The notes: generated from the letters alone by a model not told the origin. Positions 33,207 through 49,905 are shown, counted from the first letter of the stretch. The stretch is 51,844 nt of DNA from Spirochaetia bacterium (GCA_009930195.1 RZYT01000001.1:1-51844), one strand, 5' to 3'. Numbers and translations: made by a program.

Positions 33207-33926
33207 ATGGAAGAGTTGCACGAGTGCAGCGGATGCACCAACGACCTCTGCTTACGGAATGTCCCGCTTTTCGCCTCCTTGGACAAGGATTCGATGCACG
33301 CCCTCACAGCCCAGATGGAGCACCGTCATTACAAGAAGGGAGAGCTCATGGTCCGGGAAGGGGACAAGGCCACTACCTTTACGGTTATCCGTACCGGGAG
33401 TGCGAAAGCGTATCGCTCCACCGCAGATGGGCGGGAGCAGATCCTCTACATCTTTCCGGCCAATGACTATTTTGGAGCCCGATTTCTCTTTACAGCAGAG
33501 CGCGTTCCCTACACCGTGGAAGCATTGGAAGAGAGTGATGTATGCATCCTGAGCAAGACACAGTTCTCATCCCTTCTGGTGACCCACAGCCAGGTGGCCC
33601 TCGAGATCATCGAGGCAATGGCCAATCGAATGAGTCGACTGGAAACTGCGATGCAAAGCATGGGTGGACGCAACGCCGATGTCCGGCTTGCTTCGTTCCT
33701 GTTGGAGTTCAAGGATTCGTATGGAAAGTGGGATGGTTCCTATCTGGATATAACCCTTCCGCTGAGTAGGGAAGGGTTGGCCAACTATCTGGGATTGGCT
33801 CGTGAAACACTCAGCCGCAAGCTTGCACAATTTGAGGAGGAGGGGCTCATCGAGAACCTCGGCACCAAGGTGGTGCGGATTCTCGATCTTGAAAGCCTCA
33901 CTGAGCGGGCGGGTGTTCCCGATTGA
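33207..33926 (+). CDS. Crp/Fnr-family regulator with FNR-type cysteines
   Basis: A transcription factor of 239 residues: cyclic-nucleotide-like beta-barrel, dimer helix and winged helix. Cys 7, 10 and 15 in HECSGCTNDLC, plus Cys 113 in SDVCILSK, are placed like the four 4Fe-4S ligands of E. coli FNR (spacing one residue shorter). So oxygen sensing is likely. The recognition helix ARETLSRKL (about 198-206) carries Arg-Glu-x-x-Ser-Arg: Arg 199 is at the CRP position that reads the G of TGTGA, and Ser is at an FNR position. This matches the hybrid site at 33165. The ribosome binding site is AGGAG. Its stop is only three bases from the converging permease stop. Confidence 0.9.
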   Translation: MEELHECSGCTNDLCLRNVPLFASLDKDSMHALTAQMEHRHYKKGELMVREGDKATTFTVIRTGSAKAYRSTADGREQILYIFPANDYFGARFLFTAERVPYTVEALEESDVCILSKTQFSSLLVTHSQVALEIIEAMANRMSRLETAMQSMGGRNADVRLASFLLEFKDSYGKWDGSYLDITLPLSREGLANYLGLARETLSRKLAQFEEEGLIENLGTKVVRILDLESLTERAGVPD

Positions 33927-35164: not shown

Positions 35165-35608
35165 ATGGCAAATGTACAATCGATCTTGGATCAGAAGGGG
35201 AGTGCTGTGTTCAGCATCAGTCCTGAAGAGGCGCTTTCCCATGCCCTCTTGCAGCTCACTGAACATAAGATTGGTGCCCTGTTGGTGCTGAATGAGCAAG
35301 GTGATATCAAGGGAATTCTTTCAGAACGTGATATCATCCGGCATTTTTCCAAAAAGCTTGAGCACCTGAACACTGCCCAGATCAAGGTACGTGAGGTTAT
35401 GACCACCGGAGTAACGTATGTAAAGCCTCATCAGAGTTTGGAAGACTGCCTCCAGCTGATGACTGCAGGCAGATTCCGTCACCTACCGGTTGTTGATGAC
35501 GACAAGGTGGTTGGTATGGTCTCAATCGGAGATGTTGTAAAGGCGGCCCTGGAGGAACGTGACTTCCAGATAGGCGAGCTTGAGCACTATATCACCAATG
35601 CCTACTAA
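35165..35608 (+). CDS. CBS-domain pair protein
   Basis: A stand-alone Bateman module of 147 residues: two CBS domains (about 8-65 and 75-135) with the typical GALLVLNEQGDIKGILSERD and RHLPVVDDDKVVGMVSIGDV blocks. CBS pairs bind adenine nucleotides or NAD and regulate a partner protein. No enzyme or channel is fused, so it acts in trans. ATG 35165 follows TGGAGGTAACGT. It is monocistronic, with a strong terminator. Confidence 0.9.
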   Translation: MANVQSILDQKGSAVFSISPEEALSHALLQLTEHKIGALLVLNEQGDIKGILSERDIIRHFSKKLEHLNTAQIKVREVMTTGVTYVKPHQSLEDCLQLMTAGRFRHLPVVDDDKVVGMVSIGDVVKAALEERDFQIGELEHYITNAY

Positions 35609-35636
35609 CTATTTGAAAAAAAGTATAGTTTCTCCG

Positions 35637-35667
35637 AAAAAGCACTTCACTTATGAGGTGCTTTTTA
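35637..35667 (+). terminator. Terminator of the CBS gene
   Basis: AAAAAGCAC...GTGCTTTTT with a seven-pair stem including TTC/GAG and an ACTTAT loop, flanked by A's and T's on both sides. It is a clear Rho-independent terminator and could work in both directions. Confidence 0.88.
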
Positions 35668-35673
35668 TCATAG

Positions 35674-35693
35674 TATTATAGTAGGAATTACTA
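35674..35693 (+). promoter_or_regulatory. Candidate -10 and overlapping inverted repeat before the DUF438 gene
   Basis: TATTAT (35674-35679) could be a -10 element. TAGTA-GGAAT-TACTA (35679-35693) is a perfect inverted repeat just downstream, where a repressor would block transcription. No regulator is identified. Confidence 0.35.
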
Positions 35694-35707
35694 CGATAGG
35701 AGTTAAG

Positions 35708-36934
35708 ATGGACGAACAGAAGATAGTGAAGCTGAAAGCAATCATTGAAAGACTGCACGCTGGTGTCAGCAGTGCCGACGTCAAGAAGGAGTTTGAGGCT
35801 GAATTCGGGAGTGTGAGTGCCGAAGAGCTCGCAGCAGCGGAACGCAAGCTGATGGAAGACGGAGAGATCCAGGTGGAGCAGGTACAGAAGTTGTGTGACG
35901 TACATGCATCTGTCTTCGGCGGCAGTGTTGAGGAAATTCATCAGGGCAAGCAGGTTGACAAGACACCCGGACACCCCGCCTTTGTCTTCATCAAGGAGAA
36001 CGAAGGGCTCAAAGCCTTCCTCGATGGTGATTTCGCCAAGGCTGTCCAGACGTACAAGGCACAAAAAGACGAGAACAGCAAACTGAATCTGCTGGCTGCA
36101 TTGAAGACGCTGTCAAGCTTGGAGAAACATTATCTTCGCAAGGAAAACCTGTTCTTCCCCTATCTGGAGAAAGCCGGTATCACCGCTCCTCCCAAGGTAA
36201 TGTGGGGTGTTGATGACGAAATACGTGCCCTGTGGAAGCTGGTGATCAGAACTCTTGAATCTTCTTCCGAGGTACTTGAGGCGGAGCTGGCAAAACTTGA
36301 GGAGCAGGTACGCAGCATGATTGACAAGGAGAACAATATTCTTCTTCCCATGTTGCAGGGCTGTATGGATGGTGATGCCTGGCTTACGGTAGGCCGTGAC
36401 AGCGCAGATATCGGATACTGCTTCAATGGTGGTATCGAGGGAGCCAGTCCTTCCGATGCAACCACGTGGTATCGTTGGAATGCAAGTATGAGTGGCAAGG
36501 AAGATTTTGCCCCCAAGCAGGAGGATACCGGAGAGATTGTGCTTCCCAGTGGCCATATGAGCCTTGATGAGCTTACGTGGATGCTCAACACACTTCCTGG
36601 TGACGTAACCTTTGTTGGGGTTGATGACAAGGTACGGTACTTCAGTGAAGGAAAGGATCGTGTCTTCCCGAGAACCCGCAGTATTGTGGGTAGGGATGTT
36701 GCACACTGCCACCCCCCCAAGAGTCTGAAGGTGGTGGAGAAGCTGGTTGAGGATTTCAAAGCGGGCAGAAAGGACAGCGAGTCATTCTGGATCCAGAAGG
36801 GCACCATGTTCATTCTCATCAGATACTTTGCCGTACGCAATGAGCACGGTGAGTACCTGGGAGTACTGGAGGTAACCGAAGAGATCTCGTCACTTCGCAG
36901 CCTTGAAGGTCAGAAGACTCTGCTCAGTGAGTAG
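35708..36934 (+). CDS. DUF438-hemerythrin-PAS protein
   Basis: A cytoplasmic protein of 408 residues in the known DUF438 architecture. DUF438 covers about 1-80 (IIERLHAGVSSADVKKEFEA). A hemerythrin-like four-helix region follows at about 90-230, with HPAFVFIKENEGL, LEKHYLRKENLFFPYLEK and DKENNILLPML supplying His and Glu ligands for a di-iron site. A PAS domain is at about 285-400 (VTFVGVDDKVRYFSEG). Such proteins probably sense oxygen, nitric oxide or redox state; the output is unknown. In this family the PAS part often replaces a kinase input. The ribosome binding site is TAGGAG. Confidence 0.85.
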   Translation: MDEQKIVKLKAIIERLHAGVSSADVKKEFEAEFGSVSAEELAAAERKLMEDGEIQVEQVQKLCDVHASVFGGSVEEIHQGKQVDKTPGHPAFVFIKENEGLKAFLDGDFAKAVQTYKAQKDENSKLNLLAALKTLSSLEKHYLRKENLFFPYLEKAGITAPPKVMWGVDDEIRALWKLVIRTLESSSEVLEAELAKLEEQVRSMIDKENNILLPMLQGCMDGDAWLTVGRDSADIGYCFNGGIEGASPSDATTWYRWNASMSGKEDFAPKQEDTGEIVLPSGHMSLDELTWMLNTLPGDVTFVGVDDKVRYFSEGKDRVFPRTRSIVGRDVAHCHPPKSLKVVEKLVEDFKAGRKDSESFWIQKGTMFILIRYFAVRNEHGEYLGVLEVTEEISSLRSLEGQKTLLSE

Positions 36935-36942
36935 TAACATAA

Positions 36943-36985
36943 GGGGGCTGGGAAGGAAAACTTCTACAGCCCCTGTTCTTTTTTC
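36943..36985 (+). terminator. Terminator of the DUF438 gene
   Basis: GGGGCTG (36944-36950) pairs with CAGCCCC (36967-36973), with an inner GAAG/CTTC stem and a T-rich tail (to 36985). It overlaps the last codons of the converging minus-strand gene. Confidence 0.8.
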
Positions 36986-37227
36986 ATCTCATTGATGAAA
37001 GCGATGTAAGCATAGATTTGCCCTTGGATTTCTGCATTCTTCAATATGCCACGCCCTCCCCAATCCTGTCCTTCATAGACAGTGAGATGAAACAGTTCTC
37101 CCTCAACATCAATGAGATTTTGCTTGGAGACCTGCTGACGGGTCCGTAGGTAGTGCAGCGTGGTATCGTACGCAGTGTGGAAAGCATTCTGCTCCCCGGT
37201 GAGATCAGAGATATGTTCTTCGTCCAT
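36964..37227 (-). CDS. Small conserved-looking protein, function unknown
   Basis: An 87-residue soluble protein with no recognised domain. It starts MDEEHISDLTGEQNAFHTAY and contains GELFHLTVYEGQDWGGRGIL; there is no signal peptide and no Cys. Predicted helices at both ends surround a short beta section. AGGAAACACC precedes the ATG, which lies eight bases after the polyprenyl synthase stop, so it is the third gene of the NDH-2 operon. Its place there suggests, but does not show, a role with that module. Confidence 0.72.
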   Translation of the reverse strand: MDEEHISDLTGEQNAFHTAYDTTLHYLRTRQQVSKQNLIDVEGELFHLTVYEGQDWGGRGILKNAEIQGQIYAYIAFINEMKKEQGL

Positions 37228-37235
37228 GGTGTTTC

Positions 37236-38222
37236 CTATAGTGAGCGGTCCGAGAGTTTTGCGAACAAGTGCAACAACTGTCGCCTTACCTCAGCATTCT
37301 CAAGATTCTCGATATCCTTGAGTGCACGCTTCTGATAGGATTCTGCAAGATTTTGTGCTTTTTGTACACCACCCAGCGCATGTACCAATTCCAGGGCGCG
37401 TTTGACCGAGCGTCCTTTCAGCGGCATGCTTGCCTGGCTGAGCAGGGTGGCTAGTTCTGCACTTCCCCTGCTTCGTTCCTCGTTGAGCGCATACAGAAGA
37501 GGCAAGGTGGGGATACCACATTTCAAATCGTTCCCCGTGGCCTTTCCCAGTGTTGCCGAACTGCCGCTGTAATCAAGGATGTCATCCTGGATCTGGAACG
37601 CCATTCCCATGCAATATCCGATGCGATGGCAGCGCATCGTCTGGATGGCAGGTCCTTCCTGCAAGGCTGCTCCACCGTAGCAGCTGAGCGCAAACAGACT
37701 GGCGGTCTTGCCGGCAATTCTTCTCAGGTAGGTAGGTACGGAGATGAAGAAGTTGCCCACTCCCGCATCCTGGTCCAGCTCGCTTTCGCAAAGCCTGCTC
37801 AGGGCGGCACTGACAACCCGGCTGTCCATCCCCCGTTCCTTGCCGCTTGTCAGCAACAACGCCTTGGCCAGGAGGAAGTCTCCTGCGAGTACTGCCTGCT
37901 TGGCCCCAAGCTTTGCGTAAATGGTGGACTTTCCCCGTCTTTGCGAGGCAGAGTCGAGGATATCGTCGTGTACCAGCGAGGCAAGATGAATCAGCTCAAT
38001 GATTGAGCCTACCCGTATTGCATCCTCGGCAACCTCATGGTCGCCGAGTTGGCTGGTGATGAGTACCAGGGCAGGACGCAACATCTTGCCCACACCCTGC
38101 ACATGATCGAGCAGGATGGGGCGAATGAAACCATGAGCAGTCGATACCGTATGCTCTATGGTATGGCTCACCTGTTTGAGCTGGTCTTGCAAGATCGGCT
38201 CGTCGTTCCAGAATGAAGGCAT
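37236..38222 (-). CDS. Polyprenyl diphosphate synthase
   Basis: A trans-isoprenyl diphosphate synthase of 328 residues, which would elongate farnesyl diphosphate with isopentenyl units. The first Asp-rich motif is in LASLVHDDILDSASQRRGKS (about 85-104) and the second is FQIQDDILDYSG (about 205); GVGKMLRPALVL is the early GxxxRP block. Its length and second motif fit long-chain (hepta- to octaprenyl) synthases that make quinone tails. ATG 38222 follows TAGGAC and comes eight bases after the NDH-2 stop. The link to a dehydrogenase suggests its product is the tail of a quinone used there. Confidence 0.9.
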   Translation of the reverse strand: MPSFWNDEPILQDQLKQVSHTIEHTVSTAHGFIRPILLDHVQGVGKMLRPALVLITSQLGDHEVAEDAIRVGSIIELIHLASLVHDDILDSASQRRGKSTIYAKLGAKQAVLAGDFLLAKALLLTSGKERGMDSRVVSAALSRLCESELDQDAGVGNFFISVPTYLRRIAGKTASLFALSCYGGAALQEGPAIQTMRCHRIGYCMGMAFQIQDDILDYSGSSATLGKATGNDLKCGIPTLPLLYALNEERSRGSAELATLLSQASMPLKGRSVKRALELVHALGGVQKAQNLAESYQKRALKDIENLENAEVRRQLLHLFAKLSDRSL

Positions 38223-38229
38223 CAGCGTC

Positions 38230-40311
38230 CTACTTTTTCCCAAGTTTCTTTTCCATCTGCCTGCGGGTGAACTCTGGTTCTCCGAGGTAGAAGTACGTTT
38301 TCTTGGCAAGCGGTGTCTTGTTCCACAGCTTTTTCAGGTAGGGCATGACCCAGTAGTCAAGTCCGAAAGCCTTGCCAGCTCCACCAAGCATCACGATGGA
38401 AACCGCCATGTACCAGAGAATTTCCTTGCCAGCCAAGGCACCGATCAGGAACATGACCGAAAGGCCCAATGAGACAATGGCTGCGGGGAAGGTGAAAAGT
38501 CCGGCAAAGAGTGCCAAACCGATACCCAGTTCCGCAAGCACAATCATCAGCTGGAAGAGATACGGAGCCTGGGCAACGAAGGTGTCGTTGATCCAGGTGA
38601 AGATGGCAAGCGGCTCAGAGAGGAGCGGAGGAGCAAACTGCTTGACTGCTCCTGTTTCTGCAATTGCCTGGCTCACTGAGGCGACTGTGTCCACGACAGC
38701 CTGGCTGGCAGAAGCTGCAGTATCTACCACCGCTTGGGTTGCAGAGCTGGTTGCTTCCACATAGACCTGCGAGGCTGAGCTTGTGCTCTGTACCGCTGCC
38801 TGGCTTACGGAGGCTAAACTGTCAGTGACTGACTGGCTTGCTGAGGCAACTGTCTCTGCTACCGTCTGGCTAGCCGATGCCCATGCATCTGCAACACCTA
38901 CTGCAGGAGCTCCCCAGTAGACTTTTCCGCCGGTGGTATCGGTCAACCAACCGTCTTTTATCTTCCCTAGGCCTTCGATGAACCACATCACCCCAAGATA
39001 CATTCTGAGGAACGTGGTCCAGTAGGAGGGAACCTTGTATGAGGCGAGACCCCCGATAAGGGATCGCTTCTGCTTGATTTCCAGAATCTCATGCTTGAAA
39101 TAACTCCAAGCCCCGTTGATGCCGCATACGCCCGCCTGGTAGTACATGTTCACCATGTGTTTCAGTGCCTGGGCGAAGAAGCCTGAGAGGGACATGCCTG
39201 CCGTATGGCTCACTGCATAGCGACCACCGATCGAGACCATGAAACCGTGGAAGTTTGATTTGAACGGCTTAGGATGCTCGGCCTTGATTCCCATTTCGCT
39301 CTTGATGGTGTAGGTGACCCCGTCGGCAGCAGTTTTTGCAGTCTGCTCAGCAGCTTCCACGATCTGTGGGACAGCGCGATCATTCTCGAGGAACCACATG
39401 CCGTCGCCGACCAGATACACATTCTGGTAATCGGGGCTTTGCATGTACTCATTGACAGCCTTTCTGCCGATCTTGCCGTCGGTGAGAGGAAGGCGTTCAC
39501 AGAACTCGGTGCCGCGAACCCCACACGTCCAGATGAGGGTCTTGGTCTTGATGACATCGCCGTGGCGAGTGGTGAAACCCTCGGCATCCACATGCGTAAT
39601 CAGGGAGTTGAGCATGATCTCAACACCCTTCTTTTCCATATACTTTACCGCTTTTGCCCTTGGTTTCTCAGGCAGCATGTTCAGGATATTGCCCAAGGCC
39701 TCACAGTTGATGAGCCTGACTTCTTTCTTGAAATCGATGCCATTGTCCTTGCAGAGGGTGGGCAGCCACTCAGTCAGCTCCCCAACCAATTCGACACCGG
39801 TGAAGCCACCGCCGGCGATCACGAAGGTGAGCATCTGCTCGCGCTTTTCCTGATCTGCCTCCCTGCTTGCATCCTTGACCATCTGTTCAATATGGCAGCG
39901 GATGCGTAGTGCATCATCCAAGCTCCAGAGGTAGAATGCGTGCTCCTTGACTCCAGGAATATTGAAGTCTGCTGTCTGGGCACCAGTGCCGATGATAAGC
40001 TGATCATAGTGGTAGGAGGAACGTTCTCCTTTGAGAATCTGTCCCTTGAAGTCTATGTCACCAATGGTATCCTGCACAACGTTGACCATCTTGCCGCTGA
40101 AAATGCGGTCAAAGGAAATCTTGACCGATTCCTCTCCCACACGGTTGCCGGCGACTTCATGCAGCTCGGTCATCAATATGTGGTGACGGTTTTTGTCGAT
40201 CAAGGTGATCTCCACCTTGTCCTGGTATTTCTTGAATGCCTTGTGCAGATTCTTGGCGGCATGTACCCCGGCATACCCTCCGCCCAATACCACAATGTGC
40301 TTCTTGTCCAT
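38230..40311 (-). CDS. NDH-2-type NADH dehydrogenase fused to a DoxX-like membrane domain
   Basis: A flavoprotein of 693 residues. Residues ~1-400 are a type II NADH:quinone oxidoreductase: FAD motif IVVLGGGYAGVHAAKNL, IGTGAQTADFNIPG, NADH motif FVIAGGGFTGVELVGEL, and VYLVGDGMWF before the quinone-side helix. An added C-terminal region (from about 430) has a helix near YWTTFLRMYLGVMWFIEGLG, a 77-residue repetitive linker of seven 11-residue repeats, and four helices resembling DoxX (LFQLMIVLAELGIGLALFAG onward). NDH-2 enzymes with an extra C-terminal membrane domain occur in the EET locus of Listeria. ATG 40311 follows AAGGAAGGAAAC. It heads an operon with the polyprenyl synthase. Confidence 0.9.
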   Translation of the reverse strand: MDKKHIVVLGGGYAGVHAAKNLHKAFKKYQDKVEITLIDKNRHHILMTELHEVAGNRVGEESVKISFDRIFSGKMVNVVQDTIGDIDFKGQILKGERSSYHYDQLIIGTGAQTADFNIPGVKEHAFYLWSLDDALRIRCHIEQMVKDASREADQEKREQMLTFVIAGGGFTGVELVGELTEWLPTLCKDNGIDFKKEVRLINCEALGNILNMLPEKPRAKAVKYMEKKGVEIMLNSLITHVDAEGFTTRHGDVIKTKTLIWTCGVRGTEFCERLPLTDGKIGRKAVNEYMQSPDYQNVYLVGDGMWFLENDRAVPQIVEAAEQTAKTAADGVTYTIKSEMGIKAEHPKPFKSNFHGFMVSIGGRYAVSHTAGMSLSGFFAQALKHMVNMYYQAGVCGINGAWSYFKHEILEIKQKRSLIGGLASYKVPSYWTTFLRMYLGVMWFIEGLGKIKDGWLTDTTGGKVYWGAPAVGVADAWASASQTVAETVASASQSVTDSLASVSQAAVQSTSSASQVYVEATSSATQAVVDTAASASQAVVDTVASVSQAIAETGAVKQFAPPLLSEPLAIFTWINDTFVAQAPYLFQLMIVLAELGIGLALFAGLFTFPAAIVSLGLSVMFLIGALAGKEILWYMAVSIVMLGGAGKAFGLDYWVMPYLKKLWNKTPLAKKTYFYLGEPEFTRRQMEKKLGKK
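38650..38880 (-). repeat. Seven 33-bp repeats coding an 11-residue (hendecad) linker
   Basis: Seven in-frame units of exactly 33 bp encode units such as ASASQTVAETV, ASASQSVTDSL and SSATQAVVDTA. Small residues, a fixed Gln at position 5 and hydrophobics at 7, 8 and 11 mark an amphipathic 11-residue helix period, as in right-handed coiled coils or apolipoprotein-like helices. The units differ in sequence, so the array is old rather than a fresh slippage product. Confidence 0.9.
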
Positions 40312-40409
40312 GTTTCCTTCCTTGGGTCCCTGATAAGGTTGAATAGGCTGCATTTGAACCACTTGAAGGTGTCCGATCCTCCGATCAGTCCTCATGCAGA
40401 CAGAATGAC

Positions 40410-40439
40410 ACTCTAGCACAAAAGTAGGATTTGGTGCAA
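40410..40439 (-). promoter_or_regulatory. Candidate promoter of the NDH-2 operon
   Basis: On the minus strand TTGCAC (40439-40434) and TAGAGT (40415-40410) are 18 bases apart, giving a leader of about 90 bases. Upstream, CGAAA...TTTCG (40456-40469) is a small inverted repeat that may be an operator. Confidence 0.4.
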
Positions 40440-40765
40440 TTGTGTCTTTTTTTATCGAAAGTATTTTCGCATAATTTTGGTGTTTGTGCTATATAAAGAG
40501 GTTTGCTTGTTGGAAATATTTCTCAGCCCAAAGAAATTACCATTCTACGAATGAGAAAATTCACGTGGATATTGGGATGTGTAAGTAAAGTGATGGGAAT
40601 TAGGATTGGAATACTCGTTATCTTGTAAATATTTATCAAGAAAATAGTGTAACTGATAATTTATATTGATAATTTTATGACGATATTGAATCTGTGTCAT
40701 GTTTGGTATATGATTATATGTACGAACGATGAAATGAATTTCTGCATGAGAGGAGTTACGTAACG
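40440..40765. other. AT-rich divergent regulatory region
   Basis: No gene is seen. The region is much richer in A and T than its flanks. TGATAATTT occurs twice, at 40654-40662 and 40667-40675, thirteen bases apart. It must hold the promoter of the FMN-binding lipoprotein gene; I cannot pick a clear -35/-10 pair. Its size and composition suggest several regulator sites or DNA bending. Confidence 0.4.
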
Positions 40766-42067
40766 ATGAGAAAGAATGTGTTGGTTGCATTGGCAGCCCT
40801 GGCTTTGCTCTCTTTGGTTGTGTTCGCCGGCTGTTCAAAGTCTGAGGCGAAAACCGCTGCACCGTCTGCTGCTGCAGCACCTGCACCAGCAGCCCCTGCT
40901 GCTGAACCGGTAGCAAAACCGGCTTCCCCTGCCTATCAGGACGGTATCTATTTTGCTATGGATGATAGCTTCGCTTCTTCCGGTTGGAAGGAAACCGTCA
41001 CCCTGACGGTATCCGGTGGAAAGATTGTTGATGCTGATTGGAATGCCGTGAACATTGCTGGTGGAGCTGACAAGAAAACCTACGACAAAGCCGGTAAATA
41101 CAATATGGTCAAGTTCGGCAAGGCCCAGGGAGAGTGGTATCAGCAGGCAGAGAAGGCCGAGGCCCATCTGTTGGCTACCCAGGATCCTGCTGCGATCAGC
41201 TACAAGGATGCCGAAGGCCACACTGATGACATCGCAGGTGTATCGGTTCATGTCAACGCTTTCTTTGAGCTTGCCCAGAAGGCACTTGCCGCCGGTCCGG
41301 TCGGTCGTGGTCCCTATGCTGATGGTGCATACTTTGCCATTGACGAGGCTTACCCGAACTCCGGTTGGAAAGAATATGTTTCCCTTACCGTGCTCAATGG
41401 CAGGATTGCCGGCGTTAACTGGAGTGCAGTGAACCGCAACGGCGATGACAAGAAGGCCTACGACAAGGCTGGCAAGTACAACATGGTCAAGTTCGGCAAG
41501 GCTCAGGATGAGTGGTATGTTCAGGCTGAGAAGACTGAGAACCACCTGATTGCGACCCAGGACCTGAAGGCAATCACCTACAAGGATGCCGAAGGACATA
41601 CCGATGACATCGCTGGAGTCTCCGTGCATGTGAACTCCCTGTATGCACTGGTTGAGAAGGCTTTGGCCAACGGTCCTGTTGCACTCGGCCCGTTTGCCAA
41701 CGGTGGCTACTATGCAACCGAAGCTGAATTCGGTTCCTCCGGCTGGAAGGGCTTTGTCTCCCTCTTTGTCAGCAACGGCAACCTGGTGAACGTCTATTGG
41801 AGCGCTGTCGACAAGGACAACCGTGACAAGCAGACCGTCGCAAAAGAGGGTGGCTATGGCATGATCAAGGCAAGTACAATCGGCAAGGAGTGGCACGAGC
41901 AGGCAGCTGCAGTCCAGTCCCACCTTTTGAGCACCCAGGATCCGAAGAAGATCAACTACAAGGATGAGAAGGGTCACACCGATGACATCGCCGGTGCAAC
42001 CGTCCATGTGAATGACTTCTATGCTCTGGTTGAGCAGGCTCTGGCGAATGGGGCTAAGAAGTACTAA
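40766..42067 (+). CDS. Secreted lipoprotein with three FMN-binding repeats (PplA-like)
   Basis: An exported flavoprotein of 433 residues. The signal peptide MRKNVLVALAALALLSLVVF ends in the lipobox FAGC (Cys 23), followed by an Ala/Pro linker to about 55. Three repeats of ~126 residues follow, each with DGIYFA/DGAYFA/NGGYYA, SGWKE/SGWKG, W.AV and GHTDDIAG. The proposed flavinylation motif lies at about 154 (DDIAGVS), 280 (DDIAGVS) and 406 (DDIAGAT); the Ser/Thr would carry covalent FMN added by an ApbE transferase. Listeria PplA, the surface flavoprotein of EET, has two such domains. ATG 40766 follows GAGAGGAG. The gene is divergent to the NDH-2 operon, supporting a joint role. No ApbE gene is in the window. 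Confidence 0.87.
   Translation: MRKNVLVALAALALLSLVVFAGCSKSEAKTAAPSAAAAPAPAAPAAEPVAKPASPAYQDGIYFAMDDSFASSGWKETVTLTVSGGKIVDADWNAVNIAGGADKKTYDKAGKYNMVKFGKAQGEWYQQAEKAEAHLLATQDPAAISYKDAEGHTDDIAGVSVHVNAFFELAQKALAAGPVGRGPYADGAYFAIDEAYPNSGWKEYVSLTVLNGRIAGVNWSAVNRNGDDKKAYDKAGKYNMVKFGKAQDEWYVQAEKTENHLIATQDLKAITYKDAEGHTDDIAGVSVHVNSLYALVEKALANGPVALGPFANGGYYATEAEFGSSGWKGFVSLFVSNGNLVNVYWSAVDKDNRDKQTVAKEGGYGMIKASTIGKEWHEQAAAVQSHLLSTQDPKKINYKDEKGHTDDIAGATVHVNDFYALVEQALANGAKKY
40931..42055 (+). repeat. Three tandem ~378-bp repeats inside the lipoprotein gene
   Basis: The coding sequence repeats with a 378-bp period (equivalent GATGACATCG motifs at about 41225, 41603 and 41981). Units 1 and 2 are closest; unit 3 has diverged and lacks the AGKYNMVKFG block, reading GGYGMIKAST instead. 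The pattern shows two internal duplications. Confidence 0.85.
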
Positions 42068-43023: not shown

Positions 43024-45858
43024 TTGCGTATGGAGAATTATGTAAGGTACTGGGGAAAAGCGGACCAAACAACAAAGCAGTGGCATCCACTAGTCTGTCA
43101 TATGCTGGACGTAGCCGCTGTAGCTCGAGTAATGATGCAGTCTATGCCAGATTTTCTAGGTGATTGGAGTGCAAGGTTAGATATCTCTCCAAAGCATCTG
43201 TTGGATCTGATCTGTTTCTATTCTTTCCTCCATGATATAGGAAAATTCTCGTCTGAATTTCAATGTAAAATCCCCGCGTTGGCTGAATTGCTTCAGGAAT
43301 CACTTAAGCCTTCACTTTCGGGTAATCCACATACTGCATTGGCTTGGTTGTTGTGGGATGAATGTCTCGAAACACAGTTGTACACAAGGTATAACATTCA
43401 ATTCAATCAAGCAATTGATCTATGCAATACGTTGGAACCACTGTTTTCAGCATCATTTGGGCATCATGGAAGCCCTGTAATGGAACCAAATGCCATTTCA
43501 AAACGGACCTTTGGAAGAATATTTTCTGATTCAACAATTGCTGATGCTACAGCCTTATTGTCGGAGATCTTGGTTGTTTTCGATGGAATTCAAACAATCT
43601 TGCTCAAACCGGAAAAGCTGATCTCTCATCGTAAAGATATTGCTTCATTTTCTTTCATCCTATCCGGTTTGATTATTCTTGCAGATTGGACTGCTTCCGC
43701 CACCTCGAATATTCCATACCTAGTACATGCTGGAAATGGAGGATTCTCCGATGAATTTGAATTCGATGATTTGGCGGGTTATTTTTCGTGGTCATGCGTA
43801 CTTGCAAAAGGTGCTGTTGAACGACAAGGACTAGTACCTGTACTAAAGAAGCGTCTGAGAAATCCATGGAAGGAACTATTTCCAAATCTTTATGAAGCAC
43901 AATATGACCCTTCACCGTTGCAAGAGATGATGATTCACTTAGAACCGGCGGATGAACCTGGGTTATATGTAATTGAAGATTTGGCAGGATCCGGGAAGAC
44001 CGAAGCAGCGTTGGTTCTTTATTCCAAACTTCAGATGAAGAGCTCTGCTGATGGTTTGTATTTTGCTCTGCCTACCATGGCAACTTCAAATGGTATGTAT
44101 GCACGGTTGAAAGAGACCCACAAGAGGTTTTTTGTTGATGGCACTGGCCCTTCATTCATTCTTGCTCATGGTGGGAGTAGATTTCATAAGGATTTCCAAG
44201 ATTCGATTATTTTTGATGTACATACTATTCCCAAGGATACGTATGACGATTCACAGTTGCATGCTCAAACACAAGAGATAGATCATCAAACCAGCCAATC
44301 CTCATGCAGCGAATGGATTGCCGACCGATCACGCAAAGTCTTCTTGGCGCAGGTGGGAGTAGGGAGTATCGACCAAGCTTTGTTATCGGTTCTTTACGCA
44401 AAACATAATACTCTTAGGATGTTTGGATTGGCACGGAAAATTCTAATTATCGATGAAGTACACGCCTATGATCTTTATATGCAACGAATCCTTCATACCC
44501 TTCTGGAGTTCATGGCATCACAACACCGAAGTGTCATCCTTTTATCAGCTACATTGCCATTGGCAATGAAAGCAGATTTGGCTAATGCGTATAGGAAAGG
44601 GCTGCATCACGGGGTTACTACAGAAATGGAAGAAAGCGATGCAGACTCTTCATTCCCGATGGTGACAATCTATCAGAAGGGGCAAAGCATCCATATTCCG
44701 GTACAAGCAAGAACCTTCTGCAGAAGGACTGTGAAATTGGAATTCTTTTCCTCGATAGGCATTGAAGGACCATTGAAATTTCTGAAGGAGGTGTCAGAAA
44801 GCGGCAGGTGTGGTGTTTGGATCAGAAATACAGTTTTTGATGTACAAACGGCATATGCCAAGCTTGTTGAAGCAATTGGTTCTGCAAATGTGCTTGTATT
44901 CCATTCAAGATATTCCATGGAAGACAGGCAGCGAATTGAAAGTAATGTTTTGGAGATTTTTGGAAAAGAATCAAGTGAAGATCAGCGGAAGGGAAAAATC
45001 CTTATTGCATCACAAGTTGTCGAGCAATCTCTTGATCTTGATTTTGATGAGATGATTACAGATCTTTGCCCGATAGATCTGATTATCCAAAGAGCAGGAA
45101 GACTCAAGCGCCACACCCGAGACAGCAGTGGGAATCCTATATCAGGAGATAAGGATAAGCGTGGTATTCCTTTGCTTCATATTTATGGGCCTTGCATCGA
45201 GGGGATTATATCAAAAAATTGGTATTCCGAGTTTTTTCTTGGAGGATCGTGTGTATATCGTGATGCAGGAATTCTTTGGAGAACAGCTAAACTCCTATTT
45301 GAAGAGAAAGAGTTGGCAGTTCCTGAAAAATCGCGCTATATGATTGAGCGTGTCTACGGGAAGAATGCAGAGAGGATACCCGATTCCCTTAAGGAAATTT
45401 CTGGAATTGCAGCAAAGAAAAATCATCATGATGAGGCTGTTGCAGAGTCAAATGTGTTTCCCCTTTTTGATGGATTTGCCAAACCTTCCAACACTAGTCC
45501 ATGGCCGGACCATTTGGCTCCCACCCGTCTCACAGACGATGTAGTTGCGTACCGGTTGTGCCTTTATGTGAATGAAAAGCTTATCCCGATGACTAAAGAT
45601 AAGGATTTTGCATGGCAGATGTGCGAAGTGAAATTCCGTAAAACAACCATTGAGTATGAGCATGTATTCGAAACGTTGATAAGGGAGACCGAGAAGGGTT
45701 TGCCCGACTTTGGTCGTGGAGGTGTCCTGCTTCCAATGGAGCTGGATTCAAAAAGCAATACTGAGAATATGAGTTATCACAGTATCGGACACACCTGTGA
45801 CGGTATGTCGTTCTCATATGACAGTATTCGGGGATTGAGTTTGAGAAGTACGGGATAA
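43024..45858 (+). CDS. cas3: Cas3 helicase-nuclease (type I-E CRISPR)
   Basis: The effector that unwinds and degrades DNA marked by Cascade, 944 residues. The N-terminal HD nuclease has HPLVCHMLDVA, LHDIGKF (His 70-Asp 71) and FGHHGSP. The helicase follows: Walker A DLAGSGKTEAAL (about 322), DEVH box (about 477), LLSATLP, and motif VI QRAGRLKRH (about 689), then the C-terminal domain. All catalytic motifs are intact. The start is TTG 43024, six bases after GGAG; ATG 43030 is the alternative. It is first of eight cas genes on the same strand. Confidence 0.95.
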   Translation: MRMENYVRYWGKADQTTKQWHPLVCHMLDVAAVARVMMQSMPDFLGDWSARLDISPKHLLDLICFYSFLHDIGKFSSEFQCKIPALAELLQESLKPSLSGNPHTALAWLLWDECLETQLYTRYNIQFNQAIDLCNTLEPLFSASFGHHGSPVMEPNAISKRTFGRIFSDSTIADATALLSEILVVFDGIQTILLKPEKLISHRKDIASFSFILSGLIILADWTASATSNIPYLVHAGNGGFSDEFEFDDLAGYFSWSCVLAKGAVERQGLVPVLKKRLRNPWKELFPNLYEAQYDPSPLQEMMIHLEPADEPGLYVIEDLAGSGKTEAALVLYSKLQMKSSADGLYFALPTMATSNGMYARLKETHKRFFVDGTGPSFILAHGGSRFHKDFQDSIIFDVHTIPKDTYDDSQLHAQTQEIDHQTSQSSCSEWIADRSRKVFLAQVGVGSIDQALLSVLYAKHNTLRMFGLARKILIIDEVHAYDLYMQRILHTLLEFMASQHRSVILLSATLPLAMKADLANAYRKGLHHGVTTEMEESDADSSFPMVTIYQKGQSIHIPVQARTFCRRTVKLEFFSSIGIEGPLKFLKEVSESGRCGVWIRNTVFDVQTAYAKLVEAIGSANVLVFHSRYSMEDRQRIESNVLEIFGKESSEDQRKGKILIASQVVEQSLDLDFDEMITDLCPIDLIIQRAGRLKRHTRDSSGNPISGDKDKRGIPLLHIYGPCIEGIISKNWYSEFFLGGSCVYRDAGILWRTAKLLFEEKELAVPEKSRYMIERVYGKNAERIPDSLKEISGIAAKKNHHDEAVAESNVFPLFDGFAKPSNTSPWPDHLAPTRLTDDVVAYRLCLYVNEKLIPMTKDKDFAWQMCEVKFRKTTIEYEHVFETLIRETEKGLPDFGRGGVLLPMELDSKSNTENMSYHSIGHTCDGMSFSYDSIRGLSLRSTG

Positions 45859-45871
45859 AAAAGGGGGGAAG

Positions 45872-47506
45872 ATGAATTTATTGCATGATGCTTGGATACC
45901 GGTAAAAAGAAGAGATTCTCATAAAAGAGAGTTGATACGACCCTGTGACTTGACGAATGGAATTGATGAAGATCCATATCACTCAATTGATGCTGTCAGG
46001 CCGGATTTCAAAGAATCTCTCCTGCAATTTCTTATTGGGCTGATACAGACAGTCATGACTCCAACCAGTGAAGTCGAATGGGTCGCCTTGTTTCGTAATC
46101 CTCCTTCACAAGATGTATTGTCTGAAGCTATGGAGAAAGAACTGGAGTATTTCGAACTTGTAGGCGACACAGTCAGCTTCATGCAAGAGCCATCTCTTCA
46201 TGATGCAAAAATCAAACCCATTGCAAGTTTGCTGATTGATTCTCCGGGTGATAACACCATTGAAATGAATACTGATCATTTTGTGAAACGAGACGGTGTG
46301 AAAGGCTTGTGTGAGGCTTGCACGGCAACAGCTTTGTATACTCTTAATGTGAATGCTCCTGCTGGTGGCGCCGGCATCAGAACATCTCTTAGAGGAGGCG
46401 GTCCTCTTACTGCCATCATCATTCCGGATGGCTATGATAAAGCATTTGATACACTGTGGCACTTGGTTTGGTTGAATGTCCTAGTACAGAAAGATCAGGA
46501 GAGGACCCAGTGCAATTCATCCCTTATTAGACCTGAAGCAAAGTATCCATGGATCGGAAACATTAAGGTAAGCAATGAAAAAGGTTCAGAGACAACAGCA
46601 AAACACATACATCCATTCCAAACTTATTGGGGGATGCCAAGAAGGATAAATCTGATTGGTTGTAAGACATCCATCGGGACTTGTGATGTATGTGGCACTG
46701 AAAATGTCTTGCTCTATCAGTATTACAAGTCACTTCCTTGGGGTATTAACTATGGAGAAGGCATAATTCATCCGCTGTCTCCATACTATTCAGACAAGGA
46801 TGGACTGAAACTTCCTGTTCATCCACAGCCGGGTGGTTTTACGTACAGGCACTGGCCACTGTACATCGCCTCAAACAGCAGTTTGAATCCTAGGCCGATT
46901 ACTTTACAAGTATTGGACAGAAGGTTGAGAGATCTTAAAAAATCCATGGTTGAATGCGGGGTCCGTGTAAAAGTGTCCGGATATGATATGGACAACATGA
47001 AAGCAAGGTGTTGGTACGAATCTGAAATGCCGTATTGGCTTGTACCTGTAGAAATCCGAGAAGAATTGGTGGAGCACTCCACTCGGTTGGCAGAATCAGC
47101 AAATGCTATTGCCAAGAATACCAATAATGCCGTGAAGGAATCATGGTTAAATCCAGGTGCAAAGGTGAGAGGAGATTTGAGCTATCTTGAGAGTGAATTT
47201 TGGGCTTCCACGGAACACGAGTATTACCAAAGAATCCGGAAATGTGAAGAGCTCATGAATCATGGGGATATCGATTATCAAGGCATGTATGAGACCTGGC
47301 TACAGTATCTAAATCGTGCATCACTGAGGATTTTTGACGAATATGCGGAACAAGTATCTCTAGATTCAGGGAAAAGTAAATCAGGTATTCCTCGAGTGAT
47401 CACGGCACGGAATGCCCTTATTGGGAACAACATGGGCAAAAAGATACGCGAAAAGATTTTAGGGCTCCCTACGAAGCCTACGAAAAAAACAAAGGAGGAT
47501 GTGTGA
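45872..47506 (+). CDS. casA: Cse1/Cas8e, large subunit of Cascade
   Basis: The type I-E large subunit, 544 residues, which reads the PAM and recruits Cas3. It opens MNLLHDAWIPVKRRDSHKRE, the typical CasA start, has FLIGLIQTVM, the NAPAGGAGIRTSLRGGGPLT block and a CDVCGTENVLLY cysteine pair in the middle, and ends in the four-helix bundle. It starts 14 bases after cas3 with AAGGGGGGAA just before the ATG. The stop overlaps the start of cse2 (TGATG). Confidence 0.93.
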   Translation: MNLLHDAWIPVKRRDSHKRELIRPCDLTNGIDEDPYHSIDAVRPDFKESLLQFLIGLIQTVMTPTSEVEWVALFRNPPSQDVLSEAMEKELEYFELVGDTVSFMQEPSLHDAKIKPIASLLIDSPGDNTIEMNTDHFVKRDGVKGLCEACTATALYTLNVNAPAGGAGIRTSLRGGGPLTAIIIPDGYDKAFDTLWHLVWLNVLVQKDQERTQCNSSLIRPEAKYPWIGNIKVSNEKGSETTAKHIHPFQTYWGMPRRINLIGCKTSIGTCDVCGTENVLLYQYYKSLPWGINYGEGIIHPLSPYYSDKDGLKLPVHPQPGGFTYRHWPLYIASNSSLNPRPITLQVLDRRLRDLKKSMVECGVRVKVSGYDMDNMKARCWYESEMPYWLVPVEIREELVEHSTRLAESANAIAKNTNNAVKESWLNPGAKVRGDLSYLESEFWASTEHEYYQRIRKCEELMNHGDIDYQGMYETWLQYLNRASLRIFDEYAEQVSLDSGKSKSGIPRVITARNALIGNNMGKKIREKILGLPTKPTKKTKEDV

Positions 47507-48036
47507 TGGAAAACTCTTCAGAAATCCGAAGTACAAATGCGTTTCCATTGGTTTTGGAGCAGGTTGTGAAATGGTGGCTTATGATTCAGGGTCCCCATGC
47601 ATCGGGGGAAAGGGCGATGTTAAGGCGGTTGAAGAGTCCTGATGAAGTTGCACTGCAGAGTGTTTATTACAAGTTATTGGACTCTGTGCTAGAGATTGAA
47701 GGAATGAAGCAATTCTCTGGCCCACTTGCTTCTCGGCTTCCTTTCATTGCCGGGATTCTTGCACATGTTGAACAAGACAATCCCGGATGTCCAATTGCCA
47801 AATCCATGGGAATGAAGCAACAGGGGAGTGATAGACCAACAATTAGTGATCTTCGATTCCGTAAAATCTTGCGAACTGATGAGAGTGCAGAGTTGTACAT
47901 TATCATGATTCGCATAGTCAAAATGCTCGGCAAGAAAGCTGATGTCAGAAATCTAATCCAGTCTCTCTATTTTTGGAATGAACAGACGAAGAAGAGTTGG
48001 GCATCCCAATATTATCTTCAGAAAGATATATATTGA
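47506..48036 (+). CDS. casB: Cse2, small subunit of Cascade
   Basis: The small, all-helical type I-E subunit, 176 residues, present in two copies per Cascade and contacting the displaced strand. GERAMLRRLKSPDEVALQSVYYKLL and RFRKILRTDESAELYIIMIR are the family's two conserved blocks. ATG 47506 overlaps the cse1 stop and follows GGAGG by eight bases; GTG 47503 is a second possibility. Confidence 0.9.
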   Translation: MENSSEIRSTNAFPLVLEQVVKWWLMIQGPHASGERAMLRRLKSPDEVALQSVYYKLLDSVLEIEGMKQFSGPLASRLPFIAGILAHVEQDNPGCPIAKSMGMKQQGSDRPTISDLRFRKILRTDESAELYIIMIRIVKMLGKKADVRNLIQSLYFWNEQTKKSWASQYYLQKDIY

Positions 48037-48075
48037 TTGCAATTAAGCTATTGAGAAATTCAAAGGAGTTAGAAA

Positions 48076-49155
48076 ATGAGAAAATTTTTGCAGATTCATT
48101 TGTTGACGTCGTATCCCCCAGCCAATTTAAACAGGGATGATTTGGGCAGACCGAAAACCGCTATTGTCGGAGGAACTACCAGGCTTCGCGTATCATCTCA
48201 AAGTTTGAAACGTGCTTGGAGAACTTCAGATGTTTTTGAGCAGAAGATTGGAGAGATCAAAATTGGAGGGAAAAACGGTATCAGGACAAAACGGTTTGGT
48301 GAGACAGTCTACAAGCTCTTGCTTGAGGGTGGTATCAAAGATGCAATCGCGCAAGAATGGGCCCGTAGTATTGCCGGCTGTTTTGGTGCAATAAAAAGTG
48401 AGAAAGAGAAATTTCCTGTTAACTTGCATATTGAGCAATTGGCTTTCATCTCACCCGAAGAGCAGTCGGCTGCTTTGGAGTTGGTAAAGACATTACTTGA
48501 AAAACATGAAAAACCGACAGAAACCCAGCTCAAGTTGTTGAGAGTGGATACTTCTGCTGCTGATATGGCTCTCTTTGGGCGTATGTTAGCTGGTAATCCT
48601 TTTTTCAACATTGAGGCTTCAATCCAGGTTGCTCATGCTTTCAGTGTGCAAAAAATTGTGGTAGAGGATGATTTTTTCACTGCTGTTGATGATCTAAATG
48701 CGGGAGAGGAAGACCAAGGTGCCGGTCATATGGGTGACACTGAATTCGCTTCCGGTGTGTTTTATACATATATCAATATCGATAGAGAATTGCTGATGGA
48801 GAATCTACGTGGCTGCAATGAGCATGCTGATGGCGTCTGGGAAAAAACCATCCAGGGGTTGGTGGAATGTGCAGCAAAGGTTGCTCCTACAGGTAAACAG
48901 AATTCCTTTGGATCCAGGGCATATGCACACTATATTCTTGCTGAGTTGGGCAACCAACAACCAAGAACTCTTTCCTTGGCATTCATCAAGGATATCAGCG
49001 GCGATATTATCAACGAGTCGATTCAGAAGCTCGAAAGTACCAAAGAGAAGATGGATGCTTCGTATGGCAATTGCAGTGATGAATCACTTGTTCTCGATGT
49101 TATATCTGGTCGAGGGTCATTAATGGAACTCATGGAATTTTGCGTCAAGGAGTGA
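48076..49155 (+). CDS. casC: Cas7e (Cse4/CasC), Cascade backbone
   Basis: The RNA-binding backbone subunit of type I-E Cascade, 359 residues, six copies per complex. FLQIHLLTSYPPANLNRDDL, GGTTRLRVSSQSLKRAWRTS and the NSFGSRAYAHYILAELGNQQ region are diagnostic. AAAGGAG precedes the ATG. Confidence 0.95.
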   Translation: MRKFLQIHLLTSYPPANLNRDDLGRPKTAIVGGTTRLRVSSQSLKRAWRTSDVFEQKIGEIKIGGKNGIRTKRFGETVYKLLLEGGIKDAIAQEWARSIAGCFGAIKSEKEKFPVNLHIEQLAFISPEEQSAALELVKTLLEKHEKPTETQLKLLRVDTSAADMALFGRMLAGNPFFNIEASIQVAHAFSVQKIVVEDDFFTAVDDLNAGEEDQGAGHMGDTEFASGVFYTYINIDRELLMENLRGCNEHADGVWEKTIQGLVECAAKVAPTGKQNSFGSRAYAHYILAELGNQQPRTLSLAFIKDISGDIINESIQKLESTKEKMDASYGNCSDESLVLDVISGRGSLMELMEFCVKE

Positions 49156-49158
49156 TGA

Positions 49159-49905
49159 ATGGCAACATATCTTGTATTCGATTTGTACGGTCCATTTGTT
49201 TCATTCGGTGATGTTGCAGTCGGAGATTACAGGCCTACGTACTCGTATCCGTCGAAATCAGCCGTTCTCGGGCTTTTAGCCGCTTCTCTTGGCTTTAGAA
49301 GGAAGGATGAAGATCGACTAAAAGCTCTTGACGATGATTTGCGAATAGCAGTGCTGGTTTTGCATTCCGGAAAATTACTGAGAGATTTTCATACGATTCA
49401 AGTACCACCTGATGTTCAAATGAAGCGTCGTAACATAGTGACACGAAAAGACGAGTTATCACTAAAGAAGCAGAACACAATCATTTCAACGAGAGATTAT
49501 CGAATGGATTCTTATTACCGTGTAGCTGTATGGAGTGCTTCTGGAGTATTTGATTTAGTTAAGCTTCAAGAAGCACTGTCGTACCCAAAATTCTCACCAT
49601 ATCTAGGTCGAAAATCTTGCCCGCCGGCACTTCCCTTCAAAGCAGAGGTCATTGATTCAGACGACGTATGCAAAGCATTGACTATTCCTGGCTTCAATGG
49701 GGATTTGTTGCAGATCATTCCCAAATTGGATAGGAATGCCTCTTATATGCTGTATTCAGAGACTTTGCCTAAGAAGTCTGAAGGTAAAATCATGATTGTA
49801 ACAAAGAACGACCGGTTGGTGAGCAGAAAGAGCTGGCAATATGGTGAACGGAAAGAATTCATTCAATACGTAGGAGGGGAAAATGTATTTCAGCAGAATA
49901 CGTAG
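49159..49905 (+). CDS. cas5e: Cas5e (CasD), crRNA 5'-end subunit
   Basis: The RAMP protein that holds the 5' handle of the crRNA, 248 residues. LVFDLYGPFVSFGDVAVGDY and TYSYPSKSAVLGLLAASLG are the Cas5e signature, and LSYPKFSPYLGRKSCPPALP is the second conserved block. AAGGAGTGA precedes the ATG, three bases after cas7. Its end overlaps cas6e by 23 bases. Confidence 0.95.
   Translation: MATYLVFDLYGPFVSFGDVAVGDYRPTYSYPSKSAVLGLLAASLGFRRKDEDRLKALDDDLRIAVLVLHSGKLLRDFHTIQVPPDVQMKRRNIVTRKDELSLKKQNTIISTRDYRMDSYYRVAVWSASGVFDLVKLQEALSYPKFSPYLGRKSCPPALPFKAEVIDSDDVCKALTIPGFNGDLLQIIPKLDRNASYMLYSETLPKKSEGKIMIVTKNDRLVSRKSWQYGERKEFIQYVGGENVFQQNT

Follow-up and report, generated by a model that had tools for sequence, protein, structure and literature searches.

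A dispersed gene set for a probable Listeria-type flavin-based extracytosolic electron transfer system in Sphaerochaeta

A block of four genes found in a draft genome of a Sphaerochaeta species very probably represents the core of a flavin-based extracytosolic electron transfer system of the Listeria (FLEET) type. This interpretation held in every sequence test that was run, and as a gene system it is supported. The sequence-only reading had described the block as a reduced variant of the Listeria pathway for extracellular electron transfer (EET). Homology, synteny and phylogeny support the pathway, but the remaining parts are present elsewhere in the genome, thus "dispersed" fits better than "reduced". 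We prefer the name "extracytosolic electron transfer of FLEET type" because the outer membrane intervenes: a periplasmic lipoprotein in a diderm bacterium does not by itself reach the outside, and it is the extracytosolic step that the sequences support well.

The divergent gene block and its surroundings

The window, i.e. the whole stretch of 51,844 nucleotides that was analysed, comes from a draft assembly in 609 contigs, with 92% completeness and 6.6% contamination. Judged by its closest named relatives, which are Sphaerochaeta, the host is a species of this genus. Absences were checked in G100, a complete genome from this species, and the family survey covered 139 genomes. The block consists of the following features:

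36964 to 37227, minus strand: small conserved protein of 87 aa, the last gene of the operon (Sphaerochaetaceae homologues, predicted structure)
37236 to 38222, minus strand: long-chain trans-polyprenyl diphosphate synthase, DmkB homologue (polyprenyl_synt, HepT model, Listeria DmkB)
38230 to 40311, minus strand: EET-type NDH-2, Ndh2 (Pfam, Listeria Ndh2 alignment, tree, linker)
About 38660 to 38900, minus strand: variable linker of 11-residue repeats in the C-terminal membrane domain of the NDH-2
40312 to 40765, no strand: AT-rich divergent intergenic region, presumably with both promoters (sequence)
40766 to 42067, plus strand: PplA-like lipoprotein with three FMN-binding repeats (domain models, repeats, Listeria PplA)

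The likely starts are ATG 40311 for the NDH-2 (stop 38230, 693 aa), ATG 38222 for the synthase (stop 37236) and ATG 37227 for the small gene (stop 36964); for the synthase an alternative TTG exists at 38309, and ATG 38222 was preferred because relatives start at the equivalent position. With gaps of 7-8 nt the three genes form one minus-strand operon, as the sequence-only reading had proposed, and 454 bp separate it from the divergent lipoprotein gene. Three promoter-like matches in the intergenic region (40312-40765) were not above chance expectation, and the promoter and terminator scan gave no excess over shuffled sequences. The order NDH-2, synthase, small gene, with the lipoprotein divergent, is kept in every examined genome of the window's genus, thus the arrangement is not due to chance. 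The split over two divergent units, which had been regarded as a feature of the variant, is real, but it is no departure from Listeria, where pplA and ndh2 are divergent as well.

Genes for a CBS-domain protein, a DUF438-hemerythrin-PAS protein and an Fnr-like regulator adjoin the locus (35165-36934 and 33207-33926) and stay beside it across most of the genus, which suggests redox or oxygen/NO control. On the other side, from 43024 to 49905 and beyond, there is a Type I-E CRISPR-Cas operon (cas3, cse1, cse2, cas7, cas5), directly downstream of a gene for a LysE-type transporter.

Properties of the encoded proteins

The NDH-2 matched Pyr_redox_2 (Pfam, E 7e-36), with a weak DoxX-like match in the tail. 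Its alignment with Listeria Ndh2 was near full length and included the tail (40% over 665 residues, E 3e-144), whereas the best solved ordinary NDH-2s aligned to residues 1-399 only. In a tree of 50 N-terminal domains one branch (support 98/91) split off eight ordinary NDH-2s, and the window protein fell with the EET-type sequences from Listeria, Enterococcus, clostridia and spirochaetes; it must be noted that the clostridial and spirochaete rows of this tree had been selected for their resemblance to the window family, and that some of the ordinary rows were long-branched. The alignment, the comparison with solved structures and the tree agree in identifying an EET-type Ndh2 with an extra C-terminal membrane domain, and the phylogenetic check suggested with the sequence-only reading came out in its favour.

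The membrane tail of the window NDH-2 contains seven copies of an 11-residue repeat (ASASQxVxETV), of which the complete conspecific genome has about two and other Sphaerochaeta species have up to eight. The repeat was seen in the protein only, at the DNA level no tandem repeats were found at score 30. By its sequence it is probably a periplasmic helical linker whose length changes fast. We do not claim linker length as an adaptation to the diderm envelope because the groups overlap widely (medians of 114 residues in Bacillota, 124 in Sphaerochaetaceae and 148 in other spirochaetes).

The synthase was recognised by Pfam (polyprenyl_synt, E 2e-55), had HepT as its best NCBIfam model (212 bits), and matched Listeria DmkB (34%, E 9e-67). 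Both aspartate-rich motifs are present (DDILD and DDILD), with an alanine five positions ahead of the first; a small residue at this position is associated with a long-chain product. Of the 80 best relatives nearly all have linked NDH-2 and polyprenyl diphosphate synthase (PPS) genes, across Spirochaetota and Clostridia, and many of these gene pairs, including those of Clostridium, are adjoined by ApbE, EetA and EetB.

The small protein has 17 homologues, located downstream of the synthase in Sphaerochaetaceae. It gave no Pfam match, and its predicted structure, a three-helix bundle (pLDDT 87), had no fold match in the PDB. The core E..HL..Y.G..W.GR is invariant; in our searches the protein was confined to Sphaerochaetaceae, always behind the EET synthase, and it has no known relatives.

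The lipoprotein (433 aa) has Cys23 within a spirochaete-type lipobox. Its similarity to Listeria PplA was low but recognisable in pairwise (25%, E 8e-9) and in profile comparison (E 4e-16), while the PplA model NF041941 scored 99 bits against a cut-off of 325 and Pfam FMN_bind matched repeat 3 (E 7e-5). In most relatives three copies were detected with a profile built from 23 repeats of eight family lipoproteins; among solved structures the single-domain protein 2kzx closely resembles the first repeat (E 1e-38). The gene beside ndh2 thus encodes a PplA-type secreted lipoprotein with three FMN-binding repeats. The sequence-only reading gave the number of repeats correctly, but the attachment motif turned out to be non-canonical.

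The predicted FMN attachment sites are DDIAGVS, DDIAGVS and DDIAGAT. Compared with the ApbE motif D-x-x-[S/T]-G-A-[S/T] (PMC12052999), none has S or T at position 4, and repeats 1 and 2 carry V-S instead of A-T. All 82 repeat-end motifs collected from 30 related lipoproteins keep the D, the G and the final S/T, positions 4 and 6 being dominated by A and V, respectively; four further pattern matches, ending in G or Q, were taken as lying outside repeat ends. According to mutational work reviewed in PMC12052999, the change of A to V reduced flavinylation to about half and that of T to S lowered it by 10-55%, and neither abolished it. In view of these effects and of the relaxed motif, flavinylation of the lipoprotein is plausible, it may be partial or may depend on a matched ApbE. 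When the draft genome was searched with Pfam FMN_bind, three other proteins were listed and the window lipoprotein was missed, thus surveys based on Pfam may miss this subfamily.

Parts encoded elsewhere and conservation in the family

The sequence-only reading had placed ApbE, EetA/EetB and the demethylmenaquinone (DMK) enzyme elsewhere in the genome, and there they were found, all outside the window. The single ApbE of the genome is on contig C532 (314 bits; 39% to FmnB, E 3e-98). On C403 a NusG_II protein (EetA) adjoins a PF07456 protein (EetB) fused to an FmnA-like half; EetB matched its Listeria/Enterococcus counterpart with E 1e-15, EetA that of Enterococcus with E 4e-7. The second half of the fusion is related to a separate FmnA-like protein of sister genera, which gave no BLASTP match to Listeria FmnA and E 1e-3 in profile comparison; the assignment was settled by fold search, in which the AlphaFold model matched ECF-T subunits first (7nnu, E 1e-4). 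For Listeria, EetB and FmnA have been shown to export FAD for flavinylation, and EetB/ECF-T fusions have been noted (PMC9973259). The dedicated pair for the quinone tail is divided, with DmkB adjacent to the NDH-2 and DmkA, a MenA-type prenyltransferase, on C525 (31% to Enterococcus DmkA, E 9e-42).

Comparison of synteny, which had been suggested as a check, revealed that seven further genera of this family (g5, g6, g9, g13, g16, g19 and g20) have the full locus as a single block. There EetA-EetB-FmnA-ApbE are inserted between the lipoprotein and the NDH-2, the order being lipoprotein-EetA-EetB-FmnA-ApbE-NDH2-PPS (in G089 and G079 read across contig ends). Among the family genera compared, only the window's genus has the block scattered. 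The simplest reading of these gene orders is that in Sphaerochaeta an ancestral complete locus was broken up, or that its EetAB and ApbE genes were replaced by copies elsewhere.

An NDH-2 of the EET type is present in 37 of the 139 family genomes. The lipoprotein occurs in 34 of these and in one other genome (unshared: 3 and 1), and DmkA, counted as a strong match or as a divergent copy beside the lipoprotein in genus g13, in 35 of the 37 and in two others (unshared: 2 and 2). Most exceptions concern genomes less than 90% complete, and all eight NDH2-positive genera have both DmkA and the lipoprotein. Fisher p-values overstate this co-occurrence because genomes within one genus are not independent. 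PF07456 (EetB) was rejected as a marker of EET: it was found in 128 of the 139 genomes, and for this reason EetB-like genes in this genus may mainly serve Rnf/Nqr. Both kinds of complex are encoded in the genome, Rnf as well as an Nqr-like BCDEF cluster with no NqrA gene next to it (L037 2209-6153, L038), and their G/C subunits are likely other clients of ApbE.

Quinone supply, acceptors and comparison with known systems

The search for quinone-synthesis genes was successful in part: DmkA and DmkB were found, but genes for making the naphthoate head were not. In 20 genomes menD and menB gave no match over the cut-off, and MqnA/MqnD (PF02621) gave none in ten Sphaerochaeta genomes including the complete one of the same species, so that own synthesis of the head was detected neither in G000 and G100 nor in the genus. 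Since these genes were not found, the quinone is probably built from a scavenged precursor, the likely route being prenylation of imported DHNA. In Lactiplantibacillus plantarum, too, the DHNA pathway is incomplete (PMC8837199), thus own synthesis of the head does not define the system.

A cassette of UbiD, an MqnP-like UbiA, UbiX, an SsuA/NMT1-type binding protein (separated in Vallitalea), an ABC ATPase and a permease is linked to the EET loci of several members of the Sphaerochaetaceae, of one further spirochaete and of Vallitalea, which belongs to the Bacillota (L052 2458-7833; L053 2740-8110, the same as the L166 region; L151; L167; L189 2501-7843; L190 7915-16601). Its gene content suggests a possible role in the uptake and processing of an aromatic precursor of the quinone. 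No such cassette was found beside the window's locus.

The missing head genes, and the fact that a synthase alone does not identify its product, would also fit a synthase making a tail unrelated to quinone, with an ordinary respiratory NDH-2 standing beside a flavin lipoprotein by chance. We give this almost no chance, as it is contradicted by the NDH2-PPS linkage across Spirochaetota and Clostridia, by the co-occurrence with a MenA-type prenyltransferase and by the NDH-2 tree.

For the FLEET-type system we infer flavinylation, electron flow and acceptors as follows. The NDH-2 would oxidise cytosolic NADH and reduce membrane (demethyl)menaquinone, whose tail would come from the adjacent synthase, to be attached by the MenA/DmkA-type enzyme encoded elsewhere to a head that is probably imported and not made. 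Electrons of the quinol would be handed to the FMN groups that the triple-repeat lipoprotein carries outside the cytoplasmic membrane. The single ApbE of the genome would attach these groups, using FAD for which the EetB-FmnA fusion would be the exporter. Acceptors in the periplasm or beyond would then be reduced by the lipoprotein, and in this way the fermenter could regenerate NAD+.

It is possible, with a somewhat less than even chance, that this same chain is purely periplasmic and reduces nothing outside the cell, its acceptor being soluble or periplasmic: a fumarate-type reductase, methionine sulfoxide repair, or soluble ferric or humic compounds. The diderm envelope is consistent with this, and the Listeria chain also feeds a fumarate reductase (PMC9094743), but the FMN_bind search of the draft genome, which missed the lipoprotein too, gave no FMN-binding protein resembling a fumarate reductase. 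A further point in its favour comes from contig C149 (L039 6724-9554), where the gene for a secreted MsrB-MsrA lipoprotein has in its vicinity one for a small FMN-binding protein that is membrane-anchored and has a canonical site (DTISGAT); from their sequences these two possibly form a periplasmic methionine sulfoxide repair chain.

NDH-2 and quinone could also serve oxygen tolerance by passing quinol to an oxidase, with the lipoprotein incidental. The DUF438-hemerythrin-PAS and Fnr-like neighbours would suit such a role, as would a flavodiiron-like gene (judged from sequence) beside them in G094, but cytochrome bd subunit I was absent from all 20 EET-positive genomes searched while the same search was positive in 10 of 14 controls, and NDH-2 and lipoprotein co-occur tightly. 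Oxygen respiration via cytochrome bd is rejected for lack of CydA, and oxygen tolerance as the role of the block appears very unlikely.

A more far-reaching version of the FLEET-type reading is that in diderm spirochaetes auxotrophic for the quinone precursor a haem-free chain of EET Ndh2, scavenged naphthoquinone and a triple-FMN lipoprotein with relaxed motif leads across both membranes to outside acceptors, fed in some relatives by the linked MqnP-UbiD-UbiX and ABC-importer cassette with an imported aromatic precursor. We regard this as doubtful. FLEET-type transfer itself would give common anaerobic fermenters a route for disposing of electrons that depends on neighbours for the quinone precursor. 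The locus is present in named strains, for example Sphaerochaeta halotolerans 4-11 (L147), and is therefore open to testing.

It is instructive to compare the spirochaete genes with the FLEET locus of Listeria monocytogenes (lmo2634-lmo2641, compared as L226), in which FmnA-DmkA-FmnB-PplA are divergent from Ndh2-EetA-EetB-DmkB; DmkA is unannotated in that record, and its position is the one we take it to have. In both systems pplA and ndh2 are divergent, DmkB lies downstream of the latter, and Ndh2 has the membrane tail with its Ala/Ser-rich linker; FmnB, EetA, EetB and DmkA have homologues in the spirochaete. They differ in that the spirochaete lipoprotein has three FMN repeats with a relaxed motif instead of two, that ApbE, EetA, EetB and DmkA are dispersed and EetB is fused to its ECF-T partner, and that there is an extra small gene, a diderm host and no DHNA synthesis found. 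Lactiplantibacillus plantarum (PMC8837199, PMC10746273) resembles the host as a fermenter without a complete DHNA pathway, needing exogenous quinone precursor, but it is a monoderm, and for the spirochaete use of such a precursor is our reading of the genome.

Among spirochaetes, periplasmic flavinylation is described for Treponema pallidum Tp0171 and Ftp, in passages (PMC12052999, PMC4767422) that draw no link to an EET-type NDH-2/quinone locus. A spirochaete with a cad(PplA)-apbE-NDH2-prenyltransferase-HepT module was mentioned in passing in 2019 (PMC7074142); it is the same module, and the passage names no spirochaete species and contains no analysis of dispersal, quinone auxotrophy or motif. 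Among open-licence papers we found no analysis of the locus in Sphaerochaeta. Flavinylation across bacteria is the subject of a survey (PMC8238504), and EetB homologues outside Firmicutes are reported in PMC9973259. The system is thus already known, what is new is its completeness, its rearrangement and its sharing across spirochaetes. Flavin-based EET has so far been described mainly for Gram-positive bacteria (Light 2018, as cited in PMC8238504 and PMC8837199), and the complete Sphaerochaeta set, together with the loci of other Spirochaetota, would extend it to diderms.
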